DNA of 34,989 nt from Bacteroidia bacterium (GTDB lineage Bacteria > Bacteroidota > Bacteroidia > AKYH767-A > 2013-40CM-41-45): the NCBI GenBank assembly GCA_020852075.1, contig JADZBN010000176.1, forward strand, positions 1 through 34,989. The letters are read 5' to 3'. The translations under genes were made by a program, and so were the position numbers. Below the pieces are notes generated by a model, which worked only from the letters and a program-made list of their open reading frames with translations, was not told the DNA's origin and ran no database searches. Positions 25,433 through 32,115 of the stretch are shown piece after piece. The first letter of the stretch is position 1, and each line of letters starts with the position of its first letter.

Positions 25433-26410
25433 TCAATCTCCCAGGATCCAGGAAAACATCAGCGGTGCAACGATCGAAGCATCACTCTCGACAATAAACT
25501 TGGGAGTGTCAATTCCAAGTTTCCCCCAGGTGATTTTTTCATTCGGCACCGCGCCTGAATAGGATCCATAACTGGTTGTGGAATCACTGATCTGACAGAA
25601 ATATGACCAGAAGGGGACATCGTGCCATTCCAGGTCCTGATACATCATCGGCACCACACAAATCGGAAAGTCACCTGCAATTCCGCCCCCGATCTGGAAA
25701 AAACCAATGCCTTTCCCTGAACTGTTCTTCCGGTACCAGTCCGAAAGCCATGCCATATACTCAATCCCGCTTTTCATGGTGGAGGCTTTCAGTTCATCTT
25801 TGATTACATAACTGGCAAAAATATTTCCCATGGTCGAATCTTCCCATCCCGGGACTACGATGGGCAGGTTCTTTTGTGCCGCCGCCAGCATCCAGGAATT
25901 CTTCGGATCAATTTCATAATAGGATTCCAGTTCACCGGACATCAGGACTTTATACATATATTCATGCGGAAAGAACCTCTCCCCTTTCCCCTCAGCATCC
26001 TTCCAAACCTTATGAATATGCTTTTGCAGTCTTCTGAATGCCTCCTCTTCAGGAATGCAGGTGTCAGTGACCCGGTTAAAGTGATTTTCCAGCAGATTCC
26101 ACTCTTCCTGCGGACTGAGGTCCCTGTAGTGTGGAACTCTTTTGTAGTGATTATGTGCCACCAGATTCATTATATCCTCCTCCAGGTTGGCGCCCGTACA
26201 GGAAATGATCTGAACTTTATCTCGCCGGATCATTTCAGCAAGGGAAATGCCTAATTCCGCCGTACTCATGGCACCGGCAAGTGTCACCATCATCTTACCG
26301 CCTTCTTCCAGATGCTTTTCATACGCTTTGGCAGCATCCATCATGGCCGCAGCATTAAAATGGAGGTAATGCTTCTCCATAAATGCCGATACAGGTCCTT
26401 TTTTCATCAT
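25433..26410 (-). CDS. Deoxyhypusine synthase-like protein
   Basis: MMVTLAGAMSTAELGISLAEMIRRDKVQIISCTGANLEEDIMNLVAH...PIVVPGWEDSTMGNIFASY...IGGGIAGDFPICVVPMM...SGAVPNEKITWGKLGIDTPKFIVESDASIVAPL; the WGK region corresponds to the catalytic Lys region of DHS. Confidence 0.93.
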   Translation of the reverse strand: MMKKGPVSAFMEKHYLHFNAAAMMDAAKAYEKHLEEGGKMMVTLAGAMSTAELGISLAEMIRRDKVQIISCTGANLEEDIMNLVAHNHYKRVPHYRDLSPQEEWNLLENHFNRVTDTCIPEEEAFRRLQKHIHKVWKDAEGKGERFFPHEYMYKVLMSGELESYYEIDPKNSWMLAAAQKNLPIVVPGWEDSTMGNIFASYVIKDELKASTMKSGIEYMAWLSDWYRKNSSGKGIGFFQIGGGIAGDFPICVVPMMYQDLEWHDVPFWSYFCQISDSTTSYGSYSGAVPNEKITWGKLGIDTPKFIVESDASIVAPLMFSWILGD

Positions 26411-26496: not shown

Positions 26497-27549
26497 TTAC
26501 TTAATTTTCCTCAGCAGTTCAATGTAGGTCGGAAAATGGTCGCTGTATCCTCCGGCATAATTATCAAAATCATAGGTTCGCTTGGGATACCCTTTATACC
26601 TCCCTGAAGTCTGAGTCATCCAGGGCCTTGAAAAGATTTTTGCGTCCTGGAAAAAAAATCCCTGCTGCTTTTTATCCAGCCAGCCCGAAGATACCATGAT
26701 CTGATCAAACAGGTTCCAACTGTCGTTGTATGCAAGCGTACCGATTCCTTCCTTATACATGTTCACCCAGGGATTGTACATCCCTCCTCTTTTCACCTGG
26801 TCCTTTTCTCCCTTAGCACCAATAACCACAGAAACACTCGGACTTGTGGGGTCGTCGTTCAGGTCACCCATCAGGATGATCTTGGCGTCCGGATTCATTG
26901 TAGTGATGGAGTCTATTTTATGCCGGCAGACAGCGGCGGCCTTTGCGCGAGATGGCGCACTGACCTCTTCTCCTCCCCTCCGGGAGGGCCAGTGACCCAC
27001 CAGAATGTGAATGGGTTCACCCGACAGTTCACCATATACATATAGTACATCCCTTGTATGGTATTCCGATGAATCCGGATTAAAGAGGTGAACCGTCAGT
27101 GGTTCACTGAAAAGGGGCCTGAAATATTTGGGATTATATAAGAGCCCCACATCTATGCCTCTGGCGTCCGGAGAATCATAGTGAACGATATGATAGTTAC
27201 GCGACTGAAGTTTTGGGGTACGTACAAGATCCTTGAGTACATTTTCATTCTCCACCTCTGCACAACCCATCAGGGTCAGCCCCTCAGGCGACATTTCTGT
27301 ACCGATAAGAGAAATTACATCAGACAAATGACTGAGTTTGTCCTTATATACTGTACCGGAGTATTGTTTGGAACCTCCAGGGAGAAACTCTTCATCCAGT
27401 ATCTTTGGATCATCCAGGGTATCAAAAAGGTTTTCAAGATTATAGAATCCGACCACCGCCACCTGATAGGATACCTTTTCCTGGGCCCGGACGGTCAACA
27501 TCTGAATAAAGGGAAGAAGGGCAATCAAAAAAGTCTTTCTCATACTCAT
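26497..27549 (-). CDS. Secreted endonuclease/exonuclease/phosphatase (EEP) family protein
   Basis: Signal peptide MSMRKTFLIALLPFIQMLTVRAQ; VAVVGFYNLENLFD, LMGCAEVENENVL, HILVGHWPSRRGG, IILMGDLNDDPTSPS, GGYSDHFPTYIEL. ATG at 27549 preferred over the track start at 27642. Confidence 0.88.
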   Translation of the reverse strand: MSMRKTFLIALLPFIQMLTVRAQEKVSYQVAVVGFYNLENLFDTLDDPKILDEEFLPGGSKQYSGTVYKDKLSHLSDVISLIGTEMSPEGLTLMGCAEVENENVLKDLVRTPKLQSRNYHIVHYDSPDARGIDVGLLYNPKYFRPLFSEPLTVHLFNPDSSEYHTRDVLYVYGELSGEPIHILVGHWPSRRGGEEVSAPSRAKAAAVCRHKIDSITTMNPDAKIILMGDLNDDPTSPSVSVVIGAKGEKDQVKRGGMYNPWVNMYKEGIGTLAYNDSWNLFDQIMVSSGWLDKKQQGFFFQDAKIFSRPWMTQTSGRYKGYPKRTYDFDNYAGGYSDHFPTYIELLRKIK

Positions 27550-27838
27550 AATAGTAATACCATGAAACCACTGAGGGCAGAAACAATTTCCCCCTAATTC
27601 ATCGGATTTTACCGTATATCGGGGTTTTCGGGCGACAAACATACAAATTCAGACCATGAGGATGCATGAAAATTTCCTAAAAATTCCTGAATTCGAATTA
27701 TTTGAAGGTGTATCACGCGTTCTTTACAGCCACCTGACGTTGGTTGCCGGTTACAGGTTTTGCCTGGCAGGTTGAATGAAAAAACAGAAACCGGTATCTA
27801 ATTCATCATGGGAATCCATAATAAATACCGGATTTTAA

Positions 27839-27889: not shown

Positions 27890-30664
27890 ATGATGAACTT
27901 CAGAAGCCGGATTTTATTACTCCTGATTTTTATGCCTTTCATGGCATTCCCTCAGGGGACGCAATTCAAGGGAACAATTAAGGATGATCATGACTGGCCG
28001 GTTGCAGGCGCCAGGGTATCCGTGAGAAATTCAGCCCTGAGTACCACTACAGATTCACTGGGTAATTTTTTACTGGAAAATATTCCTGTTGGAACCGCAG
28101 AGTTGGAAATCACCGGAGCTTCAGGATTTTCAAAGGTCGAAGCGGTAACGGTTACTGCAACGTCAGAATCCAAAACAATTATATTACCCGAATATCCGCA
28201 GGAAGAGAGCCGGCTGGGCTCCGACAATCTACCCGTTATTTCCCTGGGTGATGATGACCTGCGGGACGCCGTTTCTCCCAATGTCGCCAGCGTACTGAAT
28301 GCTTCCCGTGACGCATTTTCCTCCGCTACCGCCTTCGTATTCAGCGCTGCGCGATTCCGCGTGCGGGGGTATGATGATGAAAATTTCGTCAGCTATATGA
28401 ATGGTATTCCACTCAATGACCTTTATACCGAGAGGAACCTCTACTCTTCCTACAGCGGATTGAATGATGTCATGAGGAATCGTGACAATTCCCTGGGCCT
28501 TGCACCCGCAACCTTCGCCTTCGGTGGCGTGGGTGGCTCGTCCACCGTTGACAGCCGTGCTTCCAGGCAGCGAAAACAGTTTCAGGTTTCTTATGCGGCT
28601 TCCAACCGCACTTATGATAACCGCCTCATGCTTACTTATGGTTCAGGACTGATGAAGGGCGGGTGGTCCTACGCGCTCAACTATTCAAGACGCTGGGCCA
28701 CGGACGGGTACGTTGACGGAACATTTTATGATGGCCATTCCTACTTCGCCGCCCTTGAGAAAAAAATCAATAGCCGGCATTCCCTCGCCTTGACCATAAT
28801 GGGCGCAAAAACAAAATCCGGAAGAACTTCTGCCGTAGTTCAGGAAATGTACGACCTTGCCGGAACCCATTATTACAATCCCAACTGGGGATACCAGAAT
28901 GGTGAAAAAAGAAATTCAAAGGTGGGAGATACACATCAGCCCCTGGCCATCCTTACACATGAATGGAAAATAAATGACAAGTCCTCCCTGTTATCTGCAG
29001 TCAGTTACCAGACCGGCTATACTGAAATTTCCGGCATAGACTGGTACAATGCCACCGACCCACGTCCGGATTACTACCGCTATCTGCCCAGTTACGATCC
29101 GAATTATGGTGAAGACCCCGCTTCCTTTGCAGTCTATTCTTCTTTGCTTGCCAGCCTGATGAGGGCAAATGAAGACTTGCGGCAGATCAACTGGGACAGG
29201 CTTTATGAATCCAACCAACTGCACGATACCACCTTCAACGGTGTTTCGGGTAAGTGGGCAAAGTATATACTGAGCGACCGGGTCACCGACAATACCAGGA
29301 TATGCTTCAACTCTACCTATAGCAATGTGGTAAGTGATCACCTGACTTTTAACGGCGGATTCACCTATCAGTCACAGCAATCGGAAAATTACAAGGAAGT
29401 AAAAGACCTCCTGGGTGCAGATTTCTTTGTTGACCTGAATCAATATACCGACCTGGCAAATCCCGATTCAACGGATATGCAGAATGACCTGAACAACCCC
29501 GACAGAATCCTGCATACGGGTGATAAATACGGCTATGACTTTACCGCGCATCTGCAAAATGCATCGTTATGGGGACAGGGAACCTGGAAGTTCAGCCGTA
29601 TGGATTATTTCCTTGCTCTTCAACTCACTTCCAGCAGTTATTACCGTACCGGTCACTATAAAAACGGCGTATTTCCGGACAACTCCTATGGAAATTCGGA
29701 AAAGCAAAACTTTTTCAATTATGCTGTAAAGGGCGGTGCTACCTTTAAGTACAACGGACGGAATTATTTTTATGGGAATGCAGCCTATCTTACCCGTGCA
29801 CCGCTTTTTGAAAATGCATACGTAAGTCCGCGTACCCGGGACTTTGTGGTAAAAAACCTGAAGGACGAAAGCATCTATTCCGGGGAAGCCGGATACCTTC
29901 TCCGGTCTCCAAAATTCAAGGGAAGACTGACAGGGTACTTTACCCAGTTTACGGACGGCACCGATACAAGGAGCTTTTACGATGAGGACTACAAGACTTT
30001 TGTGAACTACACCCTCACCGGTGTGGATAAGCGCAATACCGGGGTTGAAATTTCAGCGGAAGCCAGCCTCGGCAAGGGCTTCTCGGCAAGCGCGGTGGCT
30101 GCTGTAGGACAGTATTATTATTCCTCCCGCCCCCTTGCCACCATCAGCCAGGACAATGTGGATACCCTGCTATTTGACGGAGAAGTGGTGTATGCAAAAA
30201 ACATGAGGGTCTCCAGTGGCCCACAGTCAGCTTAGTCCATCGGCCTGAACTACCGGTCGAAGCAATACGGGTCGGTATATGTCAACGCGAATTATTTCGA
30301 TGATTTTTACGTGGACATTAACCCTGCAAGACGCACCATTTCCGCACTGGATCTCGTTGACGCCGGTTCTGTTGAATGGGACAGGATATTGTCACAGGAA
30401 AAGCGTAAAGGTCAGTTTACTCTCGACGCCTCTTTCAACTGGTCGGTTAAGCTGAATAAGAAATTCAAATCACTCAAACGAAACACCTTCGTCGTGTTGA
30501 ACCTGGGGGTAACCAATATTCTTGACAACAAGGATATCACCACCTCTGCATACGAACAACTGCGGTTTGATACTACGGATAAAAATCCGGATAAATACGC
30601 TACCAAGTATTCTTACGGATTCGGAAGGACTTTCTTCGCCAGTATAATTTTCCGAATGAACTGA
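27890..30664 (+). pseudogene. TonB-dependent receptor (CarboxypepD_reg-like N-terminus) interrupted by one in-frame TAG at 30233-30235
   Basis: Signal peptide ...FMAFPQ; FKGTIKDDHDWPVAGARVSVRN; FRVRGYDDENFVSYMNGIPLND plug; beta-barrel. After TAG the same frame continues SIGLNYRSKQYGSVYVNANYFDDFYVDINPARRT... to a barrel-type C-terminus FGRTFFASIIFRMN. Could be a true nonsense allele or a base error. Confidence 0.85.
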
Positions 30665-30699: not shown

Positions 30700-32115
30700 A
30701 TGAAAAAAAGTATCATTCTTCTTCAGTCCATTGCTGTTCTCGCATTCCTGTCAGTATCCTTTTCTTCCTGCGTTAAGGACGAATTCGATCAGCCCGTAAC
30801 GGCCAACGTAGATCCGGCAATTACACCAACGCATACCATCCTGCAACTTCAGGGAATGGCCTCCGGACCTGTTCCTGTTGAAATTACCACGGATGTGATA
30901 GTCTCCGGAATCATTATTGCAGATGATGCTTCGGGGAATTTCTATAAAGAAATAATATTCCAGGACTCCACCGCCGGCCTAAGTATCTCGGTTGATGTTT
31001 CAAATTTCAATTCCGATTATCCTATCGGAAGAAAAATTTTCGTCAACTGTAAAGGATTGTTCATCGCAGATGACGGTGACGGAAACTTCCAGCTTGGCAT
31101 TAAAGACAATCTGACGATAGGAAGGATTCCGGCATCCCTTATTACAAGGTACATTACCAAAGGCTCCTGGGGCCATCAGGTGAATCCCGCATCCTACAAT
31201 CTTGTAACAATCGGCAGTGCTCCCAGCAATACCCTTATCCGCCTCAGTGACGTGGAATTCGCTGCCGCCGACGCAGGGATAACCTATGCAGACGGAGTCA
31301 ACCTGATTTCCAAAAACAGAACCATCGAAGATTGTTTCAATAACACCATTAAACTTTACAGCAGCGGTTATGCAAAATTTGCAAACACCCTCACACCTTC
31401 CGGCAAAGGCACCATTGTGGCCGTAAATAAATTTTATAACAACAGCAGTGAACTCATAATCCGTGATCCCGCAGATGTGATCATGAACGACAACCGTTGC
31501 GATGGTTCCTCCGGACAGCTTACACTAATGCCCCTTGACAGTGTCAGAATGTTGTTCACCGGAACTGCAACAAATGGCCCGCTGGGAAGAAAAATCCGTG
31601 GTACTGTAACCTCGGATTATATCAATGGAAATACCGATCCGAAAAATATGTTCATTGAAGACGGAACCGCCGGTATAGTCGTCAGGTTTACTTCCGCACA
31701 TTCCTTTGCTGCAGGCGCTGTGGTGGAAGTAAATATCGGAGGGCAGGAAATTTCCGAATACAACGGATTACTTCAACTGAACAATGTACCTAATGTGAAT
31801 GCCGTTCAGACCGGTACAGGAACCGTTACACCCAGAACAGCCACCATCGCACAGGTAATTGCTAATTTTCAGGCATGGGAATCCACCCTTGTCAAAATAA
31901 CAGGAGTTACCATCACGGGAAGCGGTACCTACAGCGGCTCCAATACGGTGACGGATGCAACGGGAAATATGACCTTGTTTACCCGTTCACAGGCGACATT
32001 TGCTGCAACTGCCTATCCCGCAGGTGCTGTTAGTGTAACGGGTCTCCTGACCGAATACAGTCCCAGTACCTTTACTCCACAGATCAGTATCCGGAACACT
32101 ACGGATGTCCAGTAA
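30700..32115 (+). CDS. DUF5689-type lipoprotein with repeated OB-like beta modules
   Basis: Lipobox-like SFSSCVKDEFD; VSGIIIADDASGNFYKEIIFQDSTAGLSISVD...; later modules IRGTVTSDYINGNTDPKNMFIEDGTAGIVVRF and KITGVTITG.... Confidence 0.75.
   Translation: MKKSIILLQSIAVLAFLSVSFSSCVKDEFDQPVTANVDPAITPTHTILQLQGMASGPVPVEITTDVIVSGIIIADDASGNFYKEIIFQDSTAGLSISVDVSNFNSDYPIGRKIFVNCKGLFIADDGDGNFQLGIKDNLTIGRIPASLITRYITKGSWGHQVNPASYNLVTIGSAPSNTLIRLSDVEFAAADAGITYADGVNLISKNRTIEDCFNNTIKLYSSGYAKFANTLTPSGKGTIVAVNKFYNNSSELIIRDPADVIMNDNRCDGSSGQLTLMPLDSVRMLFTGTATNGPLGRKIRGTVTSDYINGNTDPKNMFIEDGTAGIVVRFTSAHSFAAGAVVEVNIGGQEISEYNGLLQLNNVPNVNAVQTGTGTVTPRTATIAQVIANFQAWESTLVKITGVTITGSGTYSGSNTVTDATGNMTLFTRSQATFAATAYPAGAVSVTGLLTEYSPSTFTPQISIRNTTDVQ

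Follow-up and report, generated by a model that had tools for sequence, protein, structure and literature searches.

An in-frame TAG in a putative DNA-uptake receptor gene of a Bacteroidia metagenome assembly is probably a consensus error

Is the single TAG that splits a TonB-dependent receptor gene in a Bacteroidia draft genome a true lesion, a codon that is translated, part of a switch, or a wrong base in the assembly? The gene lies on contig JADZBN010000176.1 (assembly GCA_020852075.1), of which the window, that is, the whole stretch of DNA that we analysed, covers 34,989 nucleotides. The genome is a metagenome-assembled draft of 2.75 Mb in 250 contigs with an estimated completeness of 85%, and in our comparison set it represents its genus alone. 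The features at issue are these:

27890..30235, plus strand: truncated open reading frame of 781 amino acids with a signal peptide, a CarboxypepD_reg domain (residues 27-93), a weak plug match (residues 116-185) and predicted barrel strands 1-17
30233..30235, plus strand: in-frame TAG, codon 782, at the start of predicted barrel strand 18
30236..30664, plus strand: C-terminal 142 codons (predicted strands 18-22) and the natural TGA, conserved about as well as the upstream part
30700..32115, plus strand: DUF5689 lipoprotein gene (PF18942), the operon partner, 35 bp downstream of the receptor
26497..27642, minus strand: Exo_endo_phos_3 family gene, which lies divergently upstream and is listed as a neighbour, not as a component

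The receptor frame is broken as sequenced

Translation of 27890-30664 from the ATG at 27890 gives 781 open codons before the TAG and, in the same frame, 142 open codons after it that end at the TGA at 30662-30664, and the TAG is the sole in-frame stop between codon 1 and this natural end. The open frame resumes directly after the TAG, and the ORF listed at 30311-30664 is just the portion of it that begins at the first GTG, 26 codons downstream. The stop site occurs once in the genome. When 1.06 Mb of this genome was scanned by codon usage for stops with coding-like sequence immediately past them, the site scored highest or close to it. The 142 codons also align with homologues as far as the C-terminus. 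Because the coding signal stays in one frame, the C-terminal part has homology, and the relatives are uninterrupted, we conclude that this is a broken gene as sequenced rather than two ORFs that happen to be neighbours, which confirms by translation, codon scan and homologue alignment the earlier description of a receptor frame split by one TAG.

Homologues read across the stop, and the codons past it are conserved

All 68 homologous loci aligned at the site, drawn from two collections, cross it without a stop, and the gene is present in 28 other genomes of the order, none of which has an internal stop. The initial annotation had predicted a tyrosine at this position, and for near relatives this is borne out by the C-terminal alignment, with Tyr in 8/8 same-family homologues; more distant homologues carry mostly Tyr, Phe, Ala or Gly, and elsewhere in the order the residue is most often Tyr or Phe. 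The uninterrupted homologues contradict the idea that such receptors naturally end here. The two same-frame ORFs that are present in the sequence would suit a receptor that is naturally made in two pieces or in a shortened form, or one under a phase-variable switch, but 68 loci read across the site, the nearest GTG past the stop falls inside the barrel, and a search for repeats that could support phase variation at the TAG site found none. The phase-like off state that had been proposed is accordingly rejected, and we consider this whole group of readings the least probable of those weighed here.

The codons past the TAG show no relaxed constraint. Of the columns that are near-invariant in 24 relatives, the receptor retains 20/21 past the TAG; in three blocks upstream of it, the figures are 78/81, 36/39 and 24/25 (138/145 in total). 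Within the family, 55/67 columns are kept after the TAG vs 59/65 just before it, and these values lie inside the spread of other genomes. Because the post-TAG codons have not decayed, either the lesion arose very recently or it is not real; a pseudogene of such recent origin would be expected to show equally well-kept columns. Twelve codons past the TAG, codon 794 (GGG, 30269-30271) encodes Gly where relatives have a near-invariant Trp. From the alignment, this substitution could be early relaxation, and it counts against an error as the explanation.

A search of the genome for a second receptor copy found no paralogue for the C-terminal part, and the gene is single copy. The receptor was not found in some near relatives (G003 and G006 of the same family and several genomes of families f3 and f5), so the locus has been lost or replaced in places. 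A megablast search for plasmid relatives returned none.

The predicted fold is that of a TonB-dependent transporter

In Pfam, CarboxypepD_reg (PF13620) is the only confident domain of the receptor; the Plug match is below threshold (15.8 vs 23.9 bits) and no barrel model matches. No NCBIfam model matched the receptor, and a single-sequence search found no direct relative in the PDB. An AlphaFold model of the read-through protein, for which the alignment was used without loci L063-L099, has a pLDDT of 83 and a pTM of 0.77, and we counted 22 barrel strands in it; the region ahead of the plug, residues 101-140, is of low confidence. The best Foldseek matches are all TonB-dependent transporters (PqqU, Fiu, YncD, FecA, FhuA and OprC). 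The prediction makes the protein a TonB-dependent transporter with 22 strands, and the model and the structural matches support the family assignment made in the initial annotation. Since the TAG falls at the start of strand 18, the truncated product would lack strands 18-22, the last five strands and the last quarter of the barrel, in agreement with the earlier claim that C-terminal barrel strands are cut off. A barrel without its C-terminal strand should fail Bam assembly.

The receptor forms a conserved operon with a DUF5689 lipoprotein

The receptor adjoins the DUF5689 gene in 24/24 loci of the order, 36/39 genome-contig loci and 20/20 loci across the phylum, the last chosen via the lipoprotein partner. 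Loci L063-L099 are included in the adjacency count. In the window, neighbouring genes encode an outer-membrane protein with CarboxypepD_reg (PF13620) and a DUF5689 protein (PF18942). In Riemerella anatipestifer, the CarboxypepD_reg outer-membrane protein RA0C_RS04915 and the DUF5689 protein RA0C_RS04920 are both essential for natural transformation and have been proposed to move DNA over the outer membrane (PMC8459023). The same laboratory reported that transformation of R. anatipestifer is inhibited when either tonBA or tonBB is mutated, which for tonBB was attributed to poor uptake of iron (PMC8383284). Against the NCBIfam model lipo_M949_1556, the window's DUF5689 protein scores 172 bits, under the 475-bit cut-off; in the three genomes that exceed the cut-off, a full-length homologue of the receptor adjoins, at 29-30% identity. 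ComEC and DprA are present in this genome with open reading frames.

By synteny with the R. anatipestifer genes tested by others, the window receptor likely takes up DNA, and because its operon matches the RA0C_RS04915/RA0C_RS04920 pair, the designation TonB receptor can be narrowed to that of a putative DNA-uptake receptor. A homologue of RA0C_RS04915 had been reported only within Flavobacteriaceae (PMC8459023). The receptor and DUF5689 pair is a conserved Bacteroidota operon that is found outside that family too, and this is the more useful by-product of the analysis. Also in the window, at 25433-26410 on the minus strand, is a gene of the deoxyhypusine synthase family (PF01916), probably a polyamine-related homologue.

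Stray stops in other genes point to a probable assembly error

We scanned about 1.06 Mb, some 38% of the genome, for stray stops with codon scores. Lists of this kind include many natural gene ends, and a stop was counted where a Pfam domain extends over it or relatives read through it. At least four further conserved genes in this sample have one in-frame stop. In alaS (C60:15017), a TAG stands where 28/28 relatives have Lys; the gene is single copy in the assembly and the fragment is otherwise normal. In pfkA (C3:1434), also single copy in the assembly, a TAG lies inside the conserved TIDNDI-x-GTD motif, where the closest relatives have Tyr or Phe. An HlyD-family gene (C18:4887) has a TGA that is spanned by the family profile or relatives, and a PepSY protein (C18:2452) has a TAA inside the PepSY domain. 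The two C18 stops are 2.4 kb apart, and this pair could be error or real decay of an efflux locus. Alanyl-tRNA synthetase is indispensable to any cell, and therefore the TAG in alaS is either a false call or a codon that gets translated.

The five stray stops comprise three TAG, one TAA and one TGA, a mix that fits random substitution. From codon usage, the opportunity for stop-creating substitutions is 35% for TAG, 42% for TAA and 24% for TGA, so that at least three TAG among four has a probability of 0.12 under random substitution, and the excess is weaker still once the TAA case is added. Given five stops and about 4% of substitutions creating a stop, the implied error rate is, very roughly, 1e-4 per base. 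Random wrong bases at this rate explain all five stray stops; the rate is high for a well-covered short-read consensus, and this counts against an error.

If the TAGs were instead read through, because the codon is partly reassigned or a suppressor tRNA decodes it, the cell would make AlaRS, PfkA and the full receptor, and it is true that 3/5 of the stray stops are TAG, one of them in an essential gene, and that TAG is the least used native stop (it ends 49 of the 556 ORFs of at least 250 codons). The suppressor tRNA search suggested by the initial annotation found no CUA anticodon among the 31 tRNAs recovered, a set that is incomplete, lacking Ala, Ile and Glu species; the window itself yielded no tRNA genes. 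RF1 is intact and 49 long ORFs still end in TAG, with in-frame runs after them as short as those after TAA or TGA. The residues lost at the three TAGs differ (Tyr, Tyr/Phe and an invariant Lys), and TGA and TAA interruptions occur too. A readthrough structure was sought downstream of the window's TAG and none was found (z-score -0.31). The +4 base there is T, which favours termination. We therefore regard readthrough as very unlikely, and slightly more so its specific form in which a suppressor tRNA encoded in the unassembled 15% of the genome reads TAG efficiently enough for alaS, pfkA and the receptor gene to tolerate it in frame, in a Bacteroidota lineage that is starting amber reassignment.

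The stronger competitor is a real nonsense mutation of recent date, whether fixed or variable among strains. It would switch the receptor off, leaving a 781-residue product without strands 18-22 that Bam would not assemble and that would be degraded, and the uptake route would be lost with ComEC and DprA intact. The TAG is one substitution from the Tyr codons of relatives, the frame past it is still open and conserved, which a recent event would predict, the single-copy receptor has no back-up, and the open comEC and dprA frames are in keeping with such a loss. Inactivating mutations in competence genes occur in sequenced Haemophilus influenzae strains (PMC2689351). Moreover, the receptor is presumably dispensable, unlike alaS, which leaves room for a real mutation. 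However, all 28 order relatives that carry the gene have it uninterrupted, and with stray stops in genes of the same assembly that cannot be broken, error suffices without a new event. We regard a genuine mutation as possible but rather doubtful; should it be real, a probable competence gene has been lost in an unremarkable way.

Because the same draft has similar stray stops in indispensable genes, we favour the base-call error that the initial annotation had listed among its options, and we infer, with a probability of about 0.6, that the TAG is a consensus or base error in the metagenome assembly. The most likely reading is thus an error, otherwise a recent nonsense mutation, and readthrough is unlikely. 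Under the error reading, the TAG would be a wrong consensus base, one of several stray stops in the assembly, and the receptor gene would most likely be intact in the living population, where it would encode a Bacteroidota TonB-dependent transporter that is paired with a DUF5689 surface lipoprotein and is probably the outer-membrane step of DNA uptake. If this is so, a lone stop in this assembly must not be taken as the sign of a pseudogene or of recoding.

Comparison with known systems

The predicted receptor resembles PqqU, FecA, FhuA and OprC in fold over its whole length (for 9c4o, E 3.5e-26 and a target TM-score of 0.73; 22 strands in the model). It differs from them in sequence, with about 10-14% identity, in its extra N-terminal CarboxypepD_reg domain, and in having only a sub-threshold Pfam plug and no barrel model match. 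With SusC/RagA it shares a CarboxypepD_reg-type domain ahead of the plug, the SusC homologue 9hfj matching residues 21-97, but its partner is a DUF5689 protein and not SusD, and it is without an NCBIfam match. The R. anatipestifer pair RA0C_RS04915/RA0C_RS04920 was matched indirectly, through domains, synteny and lipo_M949_1556, and the window copy differs in having the stop. The likeness to this pair is the arrangement of a CarboxypepD_reg outer-membrane protein beside a DUF5689 protein; when Bacteroidota genomes were selected with lipo_M949_1556, a lipoprotein family that is named after R. anatipestifer, all 20 had a homologue of the receptor, at near full length, immediately upstream.
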